Source of the DNA: Candidatus Poribacteria bacterium
GTDB lineage: Bacteria; Poribacteria; WGA-4E; WGA-3G
Reading direction: 5' to 3'
Length of the DNA: 64,000 bases
Assembly (NCBI GenBank): GCA_022827225.1
Contig: JAJDTJ010000128.1
Coordinates: forward strand, 1-64,000
Shown: positions 34,973 to 44,250 of the stretch, one piece after another
Numbering within the stretch: position 1 is the first letter of the stretch
How the letters are laid out: each line of letters begins with the position of its first letter
The notes under the pieces: model-generated
The model's input: the letters and a program-made list of their open reading frames with translations, nothing else
Told to the model about the DNA's origin: nothing
Databases searched by the model: none
Position numbers and translations under genes: made by a program

Positions 34973-37900
34973 TTACCCACGCCGGGGCTGAGGCCACTTA
35001 ATCATATAGTTAGACGGCACCTCACGAACAAACATAGACGTGGATCGATCTCGGTCACTCGTGCGATAGGTCGTAGAGGATAGATAGAGTTGGTTTTGCG
35101 CACGGGTCATACCGACATAGAAGAGGCGACGCTCTTCTTCAATCTCTACTTCTGTGATGTTCTGCCGCCACATCGGAAAACTTCCTTCCTCCATGCCGAG
35201 AATAATAACGACCGGAAATTCTGTCCCTTTTGCTGCATGCAACGTCATCAACGTTAACTGCTCAGTTGTGTCGTCCATCTCATCAATATTGGTAAGTAAC
35301 TTCTGGTAATCCAAAAAGTCAGTCAGTCGATGTTCGCCACTCCCAGATGCAAAGTGGAGGACTGCATTCATGAAATGGATACGGCGTTGCCGCCATTCAA
35401 CGTCCTCTGGAAACTCTCGTACCGGACTCTCCTGGAGTTCCCCTATATACGTTTCTGCTTGTATCGCTTCTGATGCTTCAAGCGGAAATCGATCCGGCAA
35501 TTGCGTATTATGGCTCTGAACAAAACGTTTCGCAGCATTAAGAAACGCATCCGTCTCGGTTAAGGTGTCTTTTGTTTCCGCTGTAGGCGCGACTGCTGAT
35601 TGTGATGCCTCTGTTTTCGCAAGGATGCCAAGCCCTACAAGCGGTAGGAGTTCGGTTAAAGATTTTAACTCCCGTTTGTAAGCATCAATTTTGATGAGTT
35701 CTTTGAAGATTTCTCTATTGACGCCAACATCCTCTAAGGCGCCGTGTAAGCGATCATATTCAACGCCAAATTTCTCAGCAAGTGCCCCGAGGCTACACCG
35801 TTGTCGCGGGAAAAGCCGACGCGCCGTCGTAAGCGTGTCATAATGCGGAGCAGATAAATTCCGTTTCAAGTGTCTTCTGAGGTCCCTTGCAAGGATCAAG
35901 TTATCGTATTCCGCGACATTGTGCCCAATCAAGATCCGATCATGGATAAACCCGTAGAATTCCGGTAAGACGGCTTCAATCCCTGGTGCGTCCTTGACGG
36001 TCTCCATATCAATCCCGTGAACACGCGTGGCTGCACGCGGGATATATCCGCCAGGGGGTTTGACCAAGCAATAATAACGCTCGACCTCATCTCCAATTAG
36101 GCTCAGACGGTGCGCGGCGATCTCAACGATCTCTGCTGTCGTCGGATTGATGCCCGTGGTTTCCAAGTCATAAACAACCATATCCGCCATATTTGGACTC
36201 TCATAGCGATTGATGAGACCTTGGCAGAGTTTGAGTGCCGCGAGACTCCGAACACTTTCGGTTTCGAGATGGATGATCTCGCTATCTGCGGTACCTGCTG
36301 CGCCGATAAGGATTACCCGCGCGTCGCGTCCTTTTTCGCCAAGCTCTTCAAACTCACCAATAAGCAGATGCACGCCGTCGTCCAGTTGTGTCGGTTTATT
36401 GTCATCAGGCGATAGGAATTCGAGCTGCACGCTCTGGTTTAAATAGGTTTCAAGCGTCTGGTAAATGATGTGCGCCGCGCAATACTCGTCGATTCCGTGG
36501 CTGGCAATAATCTGAATCGGTTCACCCAGGTCAATCGCGCTATAAAGCACATCCTGTGCAGTTGCTAAGTTCGGTAAATCGGGTTGTTTTTCGATGACTT
36601 CAAGTTCTTCGGCGCGGTAGGGTGAACGCGCCCGTTCCAAAGTATCAAAGAGTCCTTGGATGATTTTATCAATCTTCTCGCCTTTGGTTTCATCTGACAG
36701 TTCCTCAAGTTGCGTCCAAAATTGGCGAACATTTCGGCGAGTCAAGGGACCGACATCTTCGGGATATGCCTCAATATTTCTCAGAAGTTCCATGAAATCG
36801 ATGTCTTCACGCGTCGCGATCCACTTGAGGCGTACCCATGTCAAGTCGTCGATATAGGTTTCAGGAAAATTGATTGCCTGTTCCAGGTCTTGTGGCAGTT
36901 GCCACTGGATGAAACGGAGGTAAGCGAGAATGCCCTTACTGTTTCCTTCAGCAAAAGAATTCGTCGGTAGAATCCGTTGGAATTTGATGTTTGCACGTAG
37001 CAACTGCTCCGCCAAAACGTCCGCGAGTTTATGTGTCCGGTAAAATACGGCAATATCGCGATAGGAGTAGTTCCGCCGCTTTACCAAATTCTCAATAACA
37101 CTAATGATGCCGAGGGCTTCCGCTACCGGTGTATCAAAGGTATAGTGAAAAATGTCGCGTCCCGCATCTTTGTGGGTTCTGAGGGTGTGCTGTTTCTGTC
37201 GCTCCGAATTTCTGGAGATAACCTCCTCCGCGGCGCGTAATATCTTCTCGCTACACCGATAATGGTCATCTAATTCGACAGTTTGCGGGTTGAAATCCGT
37301 TCTGAAGTCTTCAATATACTTTGGGTTCGATCCGCGCCAACTATAGATAGACTGGTCTTCGTCAGCGACAACCATCAGATTTCGTTGTGTCGGCGCGCAA
37401 AGCAGTTGGAGCAGATGGTACTGCACACTGTTCACATCGTGGAATTCGTCAACGAGGATATAGGAAATCTCTTGATGATAGGCTTCCTTTACTTCTTCTA
37501 TCCGTAGGAGTTCAACGGTTTTCACAAGAAGGTCGTCAAAATCAAGGGCATCATACTTGGCGAGTTTAGCTTGATAGGTTTGCAGCGCATTTCGGATATC
37601 CTCGACAGTCTCGGCATCGTAAATATCCGTGTCATCTATCGCGTTAACAGGATCCTGTAGTGTGCATTTGGCATCGCTGATGATATTTCTTAGCAACCAC
37701 GGCGGATAATCGTCAGGATTGAGGTTCAATTCACGGACGCTTTCCCTTAAAATATCGTCTTGGAGCTCCTGATCAAAGATAGTGAAGTTTTCACTCAATC
37801 CGATCTTCAACGCATGGTTCCTTAGCACTCTGACACAAAACGCATGGAATGTACAGGCTTTAACACTGGATCCGTGTGGTTCGCCAATTTCGGTGTTGAT

Positions 37901-38110
37901 GCGTTGCTGCATCTCTTCGGCAGCTTTATTGGTAAACGTAATCGCAAGGATTTTCTCAGGTCTGATATTCTGTTCGCGGATTAAGTGAGCGATACGGTGC
38001 GTAATGACTTTCGTTTTCCCGGTGCCGGGCCCCGCGATGACAAGAAGGGGACCGTCTTTATGCGTTACTGCTTCTATCTGTTTCTCGTTTAAACCGTGCA
38101 GAGTATTCAT
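34973..38110 (-). CDS. UvrD/Rep-type helicase with an inserted DEDDh exonuclease
   Basis: 1,045 residues. Superfamily 1A helicase motifs: Walker A AGPGTGKT (residues 26-33), FTNKAAEEM, VDEFHDVNSVQY, VVADEDQSIYSWRG, DDHYRCSEKI, TLHAAKGTEFPVVIILG and RRLFYVGMTRAQNQL. A complete proofreading-type exonuclease is inserted between the two helicase halves (about residues 643-812): VYDLETTGINPTTAEIVEIA, LIGHNVAEYDN and HGALEDVG give the D, E, D, D and H residues. The protein probably unwinds and trims DNA 3'-to-5' in repair or recombination. AGGAGGG precedes the ATG, and a -10/-35 pair lies 113 nt upstream. Confidence 0.9.
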   Translation of the reverse strand: MNTLHGLNEKQIEAVTHKDGPLLVIAGPGTGKTKVITHRIAHLIREQNIRPEKILAITFTNKAAEEMQQRINTEIGEPHGSSVKACTFHAFCVRVLRNHALKIGLSENFTIFDQELQDDILRESVRELNLNPDDYPPWLLRNIISDAKCTLQDPVNAIDDTDIYDAETVEDIRNALQTYQAKLAKYDALDFDDLLVKTVELLRIEEVKEAYHQEISYILVDEFHDVNSVQYHLLQLLCAPTQRNLMVVADEDQSIYSWRGSNPKYIEDFRTDFNPQTVELDDHYRCSEKILRAAEEVISRNSERQKQHTLRTHKDAGRDIFHYTFDTPVAEALGIISVIENLVKRRNYSYRDIAVFYRTHKLADVLAEQLLRANIKFQRILPTNSFAEGNSKGILAYLRFIQWQLPQDLEQAINFPETYIDDLTWVRLKWIATREDIDFMELLRNIEAYPEDVGPLTRRNVRQFWTQLEELSDETKGEKIDKIIQGLFDTLERARSPYRAEELEVIEKQPDLPNLATAQDVLYSAIDLGEPIQIIASHGIDEYCAAHIIYQTLETYLNQSVQLEFLSPDDNKPTQLDDGVHLLIGEFEELGEKGRDARVILIGAAGTADSEIIHLETESVRSLAALKLCQGLINRYESPNMADMVVYDLETTGINPTTAEIVEIAAHRLSLIGDEVERYYCLVKPPGGYIPRAATRVHGIDMETVKDAPGIEAVLPEFYGFIHDRILIGHNVAEYDNLILARDLRRHLKRNLSAPHYDTLTTARRLFPRQRCSLGALAEKFGVEYDRLHGALEDVGVNREIFKELIKIDAYKRELKSLTELLPLVGLGILAKTEASQSAVAPTAETKDTLTETDAFLNAAKRFVQSHNTQLPDRFPLEASEAIQAETYIGELQESPVREFPEDVEWRQRRIHFMNAVLHFASGSGEHRLTDFLDYQKLLTNIDEMDDTTEQLTLMTLHAAKGTEFPVVIILGMEEGSFPMWRQNITEVEIEEERRLFYVGMTRAQNQLYLSSTTYRTSDRDRSTSMFVREVPSNYMIKWPQPRRG

Positions 38111-40260: not shown

Positions 40261-41061
40261 TCACGGCTTGGTGTCCGTGTTAACAGGCGGCTCATCGTTG
40301 TTAAGAAACCGCTCAATGGTGTTAATCGTCGCTGGACTTGTACGGAAATCGGCGACCCACGGTTCGCGGAAATATGCCTGCTTTTCACGGGGTAAGGCGG
40401 AAAGCACTTCGGGTGGAACCCGGAGCCGGTGCCAATGTGTTGCCAGATGCGCATAGGCGTTTAGCACTGCCACTCGTGGGGTTTCGCGTTGCCAGACAGG
40501 CCCCGCATGACACAGGTTTTCCGTGAAGAAGATTGCACTCCCTGCCGGGCACTCATAGGTCATCAGGAACGGACTCCGTTTCCCATCCTCTAACGACATG
40601 TGATCCGGATGCATTGGAAAATTAGACTTATGGCTGCCCGCGATGAAGTGTGTCGCACCGTCATTCTTACTAATATCCGTCAGTTCAAAGACGACACGCA
40701 CCATCCCGGCATGAATCCGTCCGTTATTAACGCGATATCCAAAGATCGGATCGCCTTGTTGCGGACCGCCGCCGTGAAGTCCACCGTGCTCCTGTCCTTT
40801 TCTACGCCAGACAGAGAAACTGTTCTCTAACCGGACATCGGGACCAATAATTTGGTGTAATACCTCCAACACCTTCGGATGGTCAATCAAGACGCTTGCA
40901 GGACCGCCCGGCACAGCGCGGTGTTCCGGTGGCAAGGATTCAGGGTTATGGTGTATTCTCTCAATCTGTTCAACGATTGCGCCCACTTCGTCCTGTTCAA
41001 GGATCGCCGGACGCACGAGGAAACCGGTCAAGTCAAATCGAAATTTTTCTTCATCTGTCAT
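40261..41061 (-). CDS. PhyH-family protein with an HxG metal site
   Basis: 266 residues, PhyH family by VFELTDISKNDGATHFIAGS, the distal histidine in NLCHAGPVW, and an arginine in TPRVAVLNAY. Where the other PhyH proteins have HxD, this one has LHGGG (His96-Gly97-Gly98), so the carboxylate ligand is missing. Known Fe/2-oxoglutarate halogenases such as SyrB2 and WelO5 replace this Asp with Ala or Gly to make room for a halide. A subfamily of bacterial PhyH proteins with LHGGG exists as I recall, and its chemistry is not settled. AAGGAG precedes the ATG. Confidence 0.8.
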   Translation of the reverse strand: MTDEEKFRFDLTGFLVRPAILEQDEVGAIVEQIERIHHNPESLPPEHRAVPGGPASVLIDHPKVLEVLHQIIGPDVRLENSFSVWRRKGQEHGGLHGGGPQQGDPIFGYRVNNGRIHAGMVRVVFELTDISKNDGATHFIAGSHKSNFPMHPDHMSLEDGKRSPFLMTYECPAGSAIFFTENLCHAGPVWQRETPRVAVLNAYAHLATHWHRLRVPPEVLSALPREKQAYFREPWVADFRTSPATINTIERFLNNDEPPVNTDTKP

Positions 41062-41166: not shown

Positions 41167-41682
41167 CTAACCTTTCAAGACTAAGGCGAGATTTTTTGCT
41201 TGTCCACATTTACTTCTCTTAATTGCTATGTTTTGACTAAGGAAACGAATTTTGGCACGTTCAAGTTTGTAGCGTTGCGACTTATCTATGCCTCTACCAT
41301 AAAACAGGACGGGAATGCATGTGATTTTGAGTGCTTTTAGTGCTTCTATCGCAGGCTCTGATAATTTCCTGAATACCTCCACGACAAAGTCAGCTGCACC
41401 TTGCAACTGGTCGGCTACTCCCGAGGTTTTGAAGGTACCACTCTTGAGTTCTATGAGAACAACAGATAAACTGTTTTGGGTGTCGCCCGCACAGAAGAGA
41501 ACATAGTCACACCGTTTCGTGTTTATTTTCTGTTGTTCAAATTCACATTCAAGGTTTACAATAGCGCTATCGGATGGAACATCAGTGAGGTGTACACGAC
41601 ATCCATCCCCACTACAAGAGTTGCTCAGGCATTCTTGATTGACTTGCTCCTTGATTTCTGCAAGAAGCTCCTTTAATCCCAC
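41167..41682 (-). CDS. Predicted PD-(D/E)XK nuclease, partner of the adjacent ATPase
   Basis: 171 residues. The sequence RCDYVLF (Asp59) followed by VVLIELKSG (Glu78-x-Lys80) and a QLQGA helix (Gln92/Gln94) is the layout of PD-(D/E)XK nucleases. The N-terminal region carries a cysteine cluster (CLSNSCSGDGC) that may bind metal. The start overlaps the upstream ATPase gene by 10 nt, so the two are translated together. No transmembrane segment. An ATPase coupled to a nuclease is the common plan of phage-defence pairs such as Gabija, Septu and PARIS, but this pair was not matched to one of them. Confidence 0.65.
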   Translation of the reverse strand: MGLKELLAEIKEQVNQECLSNSCSGDGCRVHLTDVPSDSAIVNLECEFEQQKINTKRCDYVLFCAGDTQNSLSVVLIELKSGTFKTSGVADQLQGAADFVVEVFRKLSEPAIEALKALKITCIPVLFYGRGIDKSQRYKLERAKIRFLSQNIAIKRSKCGQAKNLALVLKG

Positions 41683-43178
41683 TCCTTGCCCTCCCTGTTG
41701 ACTTCTTCGAGTAGATCTTGGAGGTTAACAGAACTGTCATAAAGTTTATCAGCCACATCTTCGTAATCTTTTGGTTCTATGCCTTCAGTGGGGTCAAATG
41801 GAATCTGTTTCACTATCCCATCTGTTTGGAACCACCATGTGCCTACTTCTTCTGGTAACAACCAATGTACTTGTGCCATCTTTTTCACTTTCTGGACACC
41901 TTTTCGCTTGAGTTCCCCTATCCGAATCAGGTTCGCTATTTCTTTAAGGAGCCAATCACTGTGGGTTGTTACAACGACACGCACGCCAGCGCGGACTAAG
42001 CCAGCAAGAGTTAGTGCTATATCAGTTTGTGCCCCGGGGTGCAAATGCGCCTCCGGTTCCTCAATGATGAGTGTATCGTTGAAGTGGATACCACTTCGGA
42101 GAAACAGAACTAAAGGAGCAAGTTCAGATACCATTGCGGAGACGCGAGTGAGTCGAACCTCATCTTCTATTTGTTTTGGATGATAAAGGAATTCCGGGTA
42201 TCCTCCGGGGACAGGTTTCATGAGAATTTGTCCTGCAAGTACATCTGATTCCAAGGTGTCAGCTAGGTAAGTTATTCTTTCGTCAGGTTCGGTAGTTTCA
42301 CTATGGAGTATGAGTTTTTGCATGAAGTCTGCGATCACGCCTGAAAAGGTTGGAACCGCTAAAGGGGTCAAACCCGCGCGGGTTGCCCCGCCAACAAGGG
42401 AACTCGCAATAACCCGGTGACTTTGCATGATACCACTCCGAGCGGCAGGCAAATAGTACCTTTCTCGTTGTGCTACGTTAAGTCCAGGGAAAATTTCAGG
42501 GCAAAGCACTAAGAGTTCTTCAAGGTCAAGACTTTCTGCTGCCAACCACTTATTCTCGGTGAGAAGTATCATGTCTTCGTTGAGATACCCGTCTCCAATC
42601 GCCTCCGATTTGTCAGTCTTTATATTAAAGTTCCAGAGAGCTTGACTTTCTTCATAGACTTTCAACGCAACTTTCATCTCGTCAGTTTGACTGTCCGTTT
42701 TTTGAATTATCTCGGACACTGAACCAATATCAAAGCAACGTCCAAGTTCAACTTCTAAAGCGCGCCCAGAAAAGATTGAATCCTTAAAATTGGACATTGC
42801 TAATTTACGAATTTCCTGTGGCAGATCAGAGAATGTGAAAGGTCTGTTACTCGCTGCTAGCTTGGAAACTATATGCTGAGCTTCCTCTTCGGAGGAGAAA
42901 AAGGCAGCAGATAAACCCTTTTGAGAACCATGGTCAGTTTTTGAAAGACTTCTAAAGATCGCTGGCAGAGGTATTCGTGAAAAACCGTCAAAAATACCGT
43001 GTAACGCATAGATAAGCGTAGAAAAATAAGTTTTCCCAGTGTTACTCGGACCTACGAACACTGTCAATGGACGGAGGTCAATTGTCGCTTCTGCTATCGG
43101 ACCGAAGTTCTTGACAGCAATTTCGACATTCGGGTACTTTGGCACCTCTGAGGTTTCAGGCTTTTTTGTTTCACTCAT
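41673..43178 (-). CDS. AAA/OLD-like ATPase
   Basis: 501 residues. ABC-type ATPase of the AAA_15/AAA_21 group. Walker A FVGPSNTGKTYF lies at about residues 42-53; the long middle region is helical; Walker B is TLIIEEPEAHLHPGAQ; the H-loop is VVTTHSDWLLKEI. The ATPase site therefore looks intact. It overlaps the PD-(D/E)XK gene downstream by 10 nt and the DUF1611 gene upstream by 8 nt, so all three form one operon. Likely a nucleotide-driven sensor controlling the nuclease. Confidence 0.85.
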   Translation of the reverse strand: MSETKKPETSEVPKYPNVEIAVKNFGPIAEATIDLRPLTVFVGPSNTGKTYFSTLIYALHGIFDGFSRIPLPAIFRSLSKTDHGSQKGLSAAFFSSEEEAQHIVSKLAASNRPFTFSDLPQEIRKLAMSNFKDSIFSGRALEVELGRCFDIGSVSEIIQKTDSQTDEMKVALKVYEESQALWNFNIKTDKSEAIGDGYLNEDMILLTENKWLAAESLDLEELLVLCPEIFPGLNVAQRERYYLPAARSGIMQSHRVIASSLVGGATRAGLTPLAVPTFSGVIADFMQKLILHSETTEPDERITYLADTLESDVLAGQILMKPVPGGYPEFLYHPKQIEDEVRLTRVSAMVSELAPLVLFLRSGIHFNDTLIIEEPEAHLHPGAQTDIALTLAGLVRAGVRVVVTTHSDWLLKEIANLIRIGELKRKGVQKVKKMAQVHWLLPEEVGTWWFQTDGIVKQIPFDPTEGIEPKDYEDVADKLYDSSVNLQDLLEEVNREGKEWD

Positions 43179-44250
43179 TGGAGTCTCTCCCTATTTTTTC
43201 GTGTATCTTTTGCACAGCATCAACCAGTTTATCTGCGCCGAACCGTACGACATCCGTTGCTGGCAGCCCCGTTTCCACCTCTGCTGCTTTTATCGCTTCA
43301 TGTGCCTCATTTTCAGAGAGATCGAAGCAATTCAACGCTAATCCAATCACTTTCGCAGGTTTTATCGGTGCTGCTAACGTCTCATAGTGTGCGATCATCT
43401 CAGTTAACGACGGCAACGGCACTGTATACCGCGCAACCGTGTCCCGCGAGGGTTGATGACAGAAGATCATCGCATCGGGTAGGCTGCCGTGCAGCAGGCT
43501 TAACGTTACGCCTGAATAACCCGGATGCACTAACGAACCTTGTCCTTCAACGATAAGCAGTTCGTGATTTTTTGCACCATTAAGCACGATCTGCTCTGCT
43601 GCACCGGCAGTAAAATCGGAGACGACAGCGTCAATCGCAATGCCCCACCCCCAGACCATAATCCCGTTCTGTCCGGTTGGACAAAATTCGGCATTCACGC
43701 CACGTTCCCGTGCGGCGCGCGTTACCTCTATCCCAGAGAGCATCTTCCCGACACGGCAATCGGAACCGACTGTCAGGATAACCGTGGCATCGACATCGGC
43801 GGCTTTGCACGTCGCGACAGGTAAATCATCAGGCGGTTTCCGGGCATCCCATAGAACCACATTGTGTGCCGCTGCGAGTTCGGACAATTCCGAATCTTCG
43901 CCCAGGAATCGGTGGAGTCCGCTCATAACGTGTAAACCGTTGTGTATTGCCTCGCGAAGGATTGCGCGCCAAGGATGTGGCAATTCGCCGCCGGGTGGCG
44001 CAATGCCGATAGCAAGCATCGTCGGATTGAACCGCATCGCTTCAGCGAGGTCCCGGACAACTGGAATTCCCTCCCCGATCTCAATGACTTCGCTAACATC
44101 TCGACCCGCCTTCGTGCTATCAATGACAGCAACGACGTTATCCGGGAGGTAACGAACTAACACCGTGGCGGTTTTCGATTCAAGGACACCGAATGAACCT
44201 TCGGCAAGGATCGCTATTCTGTGTGATTTCGGTTGTAACTGCTGTTCCAT
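43171..44250 (-). CDS. DUF1611 family protein (DgcN-like)
   Basis: 359 residues. The N-terminal Rossmann-like domain (RIAILAEGSFGVLESKTA) and a P-loop-like region (ILTVGSDCRVGKMLSGIEV) with FCPTGQNGIMVWGWGIAIDAV and VEGQGSLVHPGYSGVTLSLLHG match DUF1611. Family members were recently linked to D-glutamate metabolism (DgcN), often paired with an enolase-like DgcA; no such gene is next to it here. Being the first gene of an operon with an ATPase and nuclease is unexpected and may be only co-transcription. Start ATG 44250 with a weak ribosome site and a promoter at 44289-44317. Confidence 0.85.
   Translation of the reverse strand: MEQQLQPKSHRIAILAEGSFGVLESKTATVLVRYLPDNVVAVIDSTKAGRDVSEVIEIGEGIPVVRDLAEAMRFNPTMLAIGIAPPGGELPHPWRAILREAIHNGLHVMSGLHRFLGEDSELSELAAAHNVVLWDARKPPDDLPVATCKAADVDATVILTVGSDCRVGKMLSGIEVTRAARERGVNAEFCPTGQNGIMVWGWGIAIDAVVSDFTAGAAEQIVLNGAKNHELLIVEGQGSLVHPGYSGVTLSLLHGSLPDAMIFCHQPSRDTVARYTVPLPSLTEMIAHYETLAAPIKPAKVIGLALNCFDLSENEAHEAIKAAEVETGLPATDVVRFGADKLVDAVQKIHEKIGRDSNE

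Follow-up and report, generated by a model that had tools for sequence, protein, structure and literature searches.

A divergent poribacterial ATPase-nuclease pair of the PD-T4-4/PDC-M47/WonAB type whose ATPase middle region is exchanged between species

Two overlapping genes of a Candidatus Poribacteria bacterium encode an ABC-type ATPase, named A here, and a small protein, named B. They lie in a 64,000-nucleotide stretch (the window) of a 5.6-Mb draft genome. A sequence-only reading had described A as an OLD/AAA ATPase and B as a predicted PD-(D/E)XK nuclease, and had left the pair without a match among named defence systems. Is B indeed such a nuclease, do the two genes belong together, and to which kind of system do they belong? 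These questions were addressed by comparison with homologues, using draft metagenome-assembled genomes in which ORFs were called by a simple method. The features of the locus are collected in Table 1.

Table 1. Features of the A-B locus, in window coordinates
Feature	Position	Strand	Description or basis
ATPase A gene	41673-43178	-	501 aa, ATG start; OLD-type ABC ATPase, AAA_15; putative sensor/regulator component
A Walker A, GPSNTGKT, residues 43-50 (K49)	43029-43052	-	conserved, 63 homologues
A exchangeable middle, residues ~56-245	42444-43013	-	putative trigger sensor; identity contrast, segment dS, AU tests
A ABC signature-like MVSELA, residues 349-354	42117-42134	-	near-invariant, 63 homologues
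A Walker B, LIIEEPE, residues 370-376	42051-42071	-	near-invariant, 63 homologues
A H-loop, TTHS, residues 404-407 (H406)	41958-41969	-	near-invariant, 63 homologues
A stop/B start overlap	41673-41682	-	10 nt, read from the sequence
Nuclease B gene	41167-41682	-	171 aa, GTG start; PD-(D/E)XK fold; putative effector component
B Cys23...Cys28 (CSGDGC), part of four-cysteine signature	41599-41616	-	C23 in 52/57 homologues, C28 in 57/57
B Glu45, first acidic position	41548-41550	-	E/D in 56/57 homologues
B Cys58	41509-41511	-	52/57 homologues
B Asp59	41506-41508	-	homologue conservation and hhalign
B Glu78-Leu-Lys80 (ExK)	41443-41451	-	homologue conservation and hhalign
B Cys159	41206-41208	-	57/57 homologues
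DUF1611 gene	43171-44250	-	conserved gene on the upstream side of the cassette site; outside the system
PhyH-family dioxygenase gene	40261-41061	-	conserved downstream flank of the site; outside the system

The two proteins and the fold of the nuclease

The ATPase motifs noticed at first sight (Walker A, Walker B and H-loop) turned out to be near-invariant over 63 distinct homologues. Pfam assigns A to AAA_15 (2.7e-21) and finds no Toprim domain on either protein. The OLD label is therefore right as to the ABC ATPase lineage but not as to the Toprim domain that goes with it. The structure model of A, with a pLDDT of 70.7, is too weak for detailed reading; in Foldseek it matches Septu PtuA and SMC heads.

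For B, the catalytic residues proposed earlier are kept by almost all of 57 distinct homologues: E78 in 56, K80 in 55 and D59 in 54, the other three having a glutamate there. This conservation shows that the D/E/K motif is not a chance one. Together with the homologues of A and the dN/dS values given below, it also disposes of the idea of a chance ORF. The AlphaFold2 model of B, obtained from shallow alignments (24 window and locus sequences as input), has a pLDDT of 93.4 and a pTM of 0.90. It displays a strand (39-43), a helix (44-51), two strands (60-65 and 71-80), a second helix (86-105) and a further strand (119-128). This is the alpha-beta-beta-beta-alpha-beta order of the PD-(D/E)XK core, with D59 and E78-x-K80 at strand ends. 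When the B family is compared with the PDC-M47B family by hhalign, the two match with 97.4% probability (E 9.8e-12), the D, the ExK and the next helix being in register. The leading Foldseek matches of B are mostly PD-(D/E)XK enzymes (EcoO109I, HamA, Avs3, Cdn1, Bse634I, Can2, FokI), at low TM scores and with no PDB match below E 1e-3. No significant match among PDB sequences came from a profile search with B, and Pfam returned only a sub-threshold match to HSDR_N (E 0.024). On the grounds of residue conservation, predicted topology, hhalign and the Foldseek list, B is a PD-(D/E)XK protein, as had been predicted.

Of the two other features pointed out in B, the QLQ helix holds in part: L93 is conserved (55/57) but the glutamines are often replaced by K or E. 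The cysteine cluster is well founded (Table 1). Homologues that lose C23 differ from those that lose C58, and among the 57 both are never lost jointly, so that no simple four-ligand rule applies. Covarying loss, which would have favoured one metal site, is ruled out by these independent losses. A structural metal site formed by the cysteines of B is nevertheless possible.

Relation to known defence pairs

Which known systems resemble the pair? A shares an ABC ATPase domain with Septu (PtuAB), Gabija, PARIS and OLD, and the sequence-only reading was correct in setting the pair apart from these four. The partner differs: B is a PD-(D/E)XK protein and neither the HNH protein PtuB nor the UvrD-like helicase GajB, which rules out Septu and Gabija. 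The Toprim domain of Old and AriB is found by Pfam on neither A nor B, which rules out OLD and PARIS. That reading had missed that both genes find their best match in an existing two-gene defence type, PD-T4-4/PDC-M47. In PADLOC, the three best models for A are two models of PD-T4-4_A (9.5e-37) and PDC-M47A (2.6e-27); they beat the models of other ATPase defence systems, AriA, Old and GajA being among the many weaker matches. The adjacent downstream gene, B, matches PDC-M47B (1.1e-7) and PD-T4-4_B (3e-4), and 18 of 22 diverse B members match these B models.

Membership of PDC-M47 or PD-T4-4 proper can be discarded in view of low scores and of a separate ATPase clade. On the models of the two families, the window proteins score 94-125 bits (A) and 19-30 bits (B), to be compared with 486-601 and at least 191 bits for true members. 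Textbook PDC-M47 pairs, which served as a positive control, do occur in other Poribacteria (e.g. L069 and L071). There the scores reach 601 bits for A and 191 bits for B, against 94 and 30 for the window pair on PDC-M47. PDC-M47A is present in 39 of 85 Poribacteria genomes and is absent from that of the window. In a tree of ATPases that took in PDC-M47, PD-T4-4 and an outgroup, the window family forms its own clade (98%) beside PDC-M47 and PD-T4-4 (98%); the branch of the outgroup is very long and the root uncertain. The textbook pairs L068-L073 (genomes G059, G049, G039, G046, G060 and G071) have an A of ~460 aa and a B of ~195 aa, and several of them adjoin PhyH-like dioxygenase genes.

The likeness to each relative is of its own kind. 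PDC-M47 has the same A-B order, overlapping genes and an AAA_15 ABC ATPase. Its nuclease aligns with B over 76 columns of the PD-(D/E)XK core (D, ExK and following helix) but not outside the core, where B has the four-cysteine signature instead. With ~30 bits shared with PDC-M47B, B stands far from the experimentally tested systems. PD-T4-4, which comes from a functional anti-phage screen in E. coli (PMC9519451), has the same two-gene plan and is the family that PADLOC ranks first for A of the window. Its nuclease motif, KSCD...DQK, aligns with B by hhalign (67%). However, PD-T4-4_B is longer (~190-210 aa, against 171), its match to B is weak and the ATPases belong to separate clades. The four conserved cysteines are found in B of the window clade and lacking in the PD-T4-4 and PDC-M47 nucleases.

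The best-studied relative is WonAB, from the V. cholerae WASA-1 prophage, described as similar to PD-T4-4 (PMC12137116). Like the window pair, WonAB combines in one operon an OLD-type ABC ATPase and a small PD-(D/E)xK nuclease. Its defence requires both genes, ATPase residues and K71 of WonB (PMC12137116). By motif and spacing only, K34, R182, E300 and H333 of WonA correspond to K49, R247, E374 (or E373) and H406 of A, and K71 of WonB to K80 of B; all these residues of A and B are conserved. The window pair looks functional and represents the PD-T4-4/PDC-M47/WonAB type in a divergent, poribacterial form; it is not a new kind of system.

How would such a pair act? WonAB aborts infection: translation stops while chromosomal DNA stays intact, and WonB is toxic only alongside active WonA (PMC12137116). 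By homology, A and B would form a complex, under the control of ATP and with an anti-phage role. We consider it probable that the pair is an ATPase-sensor/nuclease-effector system of this type, from a divergent poribacterial clade and working by abortive infection. The same sensor-nuclease machine could instead destroy incoming DNA directly, in a restriction-like manner and with neither arrest nor killing of the cell. The faint resemblance to HSDR_N, a type I restriction subunit, would suit this idea, as would EcoO109I, Bse634I and the Hachiman nuclease HamA at the top of the Foldseek list. It is at odds with the behaviour of WonAB (PMC12137116), and at the window site the pair is not accompanied by a methylase or any other gene for self-marking. 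Restriction-like action is accordingly judged unlikely, though it is the foremost of the alternatives weighed here.

Pairing and chromosomal site

The 10-nt overlap had suggested obligate pairing, and the distribution of the genes agrees with this. Of 85 Poribacteria genomes, 63 contain B and 62 contain A. Once fragments are merged there are 141 A loci, and in 132 of these B lies directly downstream on the same strand, in most cases with a gap of -28 to +33 nt (typically -10 to +30 nt). Copy number varies from 0 to 7 per genome, and the window genome carries two more, diverged copies of the pair (contigs C21 and C149). Matches to B lacking a partner correspond to contig ends (G019, G051, G058), a truncated copy (G038) and a short fragment (G028). 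Seven further ones are weak and belong to true PDC-M47 pairs. Across the 85 genomes no intact, contiguous B was seen without A. Unpaired copies of A do occur. In G070 (L063, G070:C158), a deletion has cut B to its first 15 codons and A is still open at the same site. The pairing of A and B thus looks obligate.

This asymmetry and the tight gene overlap are reminiscent of a toxin-antitoxin pair, in which B would be the toxin and A, able to persist alone, its neutraliser. However, a B useless without A would leave the same asymmetry, and the WonAB nuclease is toxic only in company with an active ATPase (PMC12137116). We regard this as the least probable of the readings considered.

A genome-wide scan with the peptide NSCSG[ED]GC and a second short stretch retrieved Poribacteria only. 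The nearest public relatives of the window genome are all Candidatus Poribacteria. In the plasmids, phages and viral contigs searched, no relatives of B were found and A gave only generic matches. A comparison of 99 neighbours of pairs with 99 controls gave no clear enrichment near defence genes: some methylases and HEC-01 pairs lie close to copies, as against isolated matches in the controls, and the independent loci are few. Two kinds of neighbours without PADLOC match may be mentioned. A protein of 216-227 aa adjoins the C21-type copy (L002:621-1304 in G000:C21, L062:5057-5749, L067:5868-6542); it may have a nuclease core (AECK), after which come a transmembrane segment and an end rich in Cys and His. 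Genes of equal length (456 aa) adjoin some pair copies in different genomes (L090:11353-12720, L095:12038-13405, L084:222-1589).

The window pair is embedded in a conserved block, EndoIII-TIM-DUF1611-[A-B]-PhyH-(WD40)-UvrD, in which the DUF1611 gene overlaps the start of A by 8 nt. This gene belongs to the core set, occurring in 54 of the 59 genomes of the family. The UvrD-like helicase of the window (34973-38110, minus strand, 1045 aa) has, by eye, an apparent DnaQ-type exonuclease domain in the middle of the protein (VYDLETTG...). Of 30 such loci in related genomes, 11 contain A at this place, 2 are otherwise arranged and 17 have an empty site, where DUF1611 and PhyH are immediate neighbours, 27-334 bp apart. 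The window pair is therefore a cassette whose presence at this one chromosomal site is optional. The empty sites with 330 bp (L112, L118, L123, L128) do not hold a remnant of the pair, as the gap is occupied by an unrelated small ORF of ~86 aa (MTTRQWSVETE...). The same ORF occurs in G082 (L078), beside the pair.

Values of dN/dS are 0.16-0.23 for A, 0.11-0.16 for B and 0.03-0.10 for flanking genes. Both genes are under purifying selection, looser than that on the flanks. It may be asked whether the pair is rather a housekeeping complex for DNA or RNA repair or quality control, unrelated to phages and kept at fixed chromosomal sites. The copies at stable syntenic sites across species, outside any mobile-element or clear defence-island context, would agree with such a function. 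However, the variable copy number, the empty sites, an evolution faster than that of the neighbours and the exchanged middle region described below better suit an accessory immune gene, and the relatives PD-T4-4 and WonAB were discovered through their anti-phage activity. A housekeeping role is thus improbable, somewhat more so than restriction-like action.

An exchanged middle region in the ATPase

At the DUF1611/PhyH site, residues 1-50 and 331-501 of A are mostly 75-95% identical between species. In between, residues ~56-245 fall into distinct types that share 28-45% identity. Trees of 11 genomes were built from the middle region, from the C-terminus with B, and from the flanks. Each of these partitions rejects the topologies of the other two in AU tests (p 5e-6 or smaller, log-likelihood differences of 155-508). 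Synonymous divergence points in the same direction. Between G082 and G076, dS is 0.17 in the middle region, 1.04 in B and 0.60-0.68 in the flanks. The reverse is seen between G083 and G077, with 0.03 in B, 1.06 in the middle region and 0.28-0.35 in the flanks. Between the window genome and G082, the values are 0.40 in B, 2.18 in the middle region and 0.80-0.87 in the flanks. This reciprocal pattern does not arise from fast drift alone; it is what exchange by recombination within the conserved cores produces. At this site, the middle of A has been exchanged between species independently of the C-terminus of A and of B.

Its independent exchange makes the middle of A a natural candidate for the sensor, and residues ~56-245 are likely to be the part that senses the phage. 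In the model of WonAB, the nuclease docks on C-terminal extensions of the ATPase; this fits the part of A that moves with B, which may have the same function. In the abortive-infection mechanism that we favour, A would dimerise as an ABC ATPase and its middle would recognise either a product of the phage or some change that accompanies infection. An ATP-dependent rearrangement would then be relayed through the conserved C-terminal region of A to bound B, and the PD-(D/E)XK site of B would cut nucleic acid, so that the infected cell is stopped.

A broader proposal, to which we give about even weight, is that an immune pair at a fixed site diversifies by homologous exchange of the A middle and, separately, of the C-terminus with B. 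Interchangeable sensors for phage triggers would thereby be placed on a constant signalling core, and the nuclease clade would have a four-cysteine site of its own, for a metal or for redox purposes.

New here are the optional cassette at one site and, at that site, the exchange of the ATPase middle between species. The exchange has produced natural chimaeras among sister species, in which a near-identical nuclease and ATPase core carry different middles, and the reverse. These chimaeras point to one segment of ~190 residues as the probable sensor in the recently described PD-T4-4/WonAB type, which is a testable idea. They also belong to a defence type that is hereby extended to an uncultured phylum, with up to seven copies per genome.
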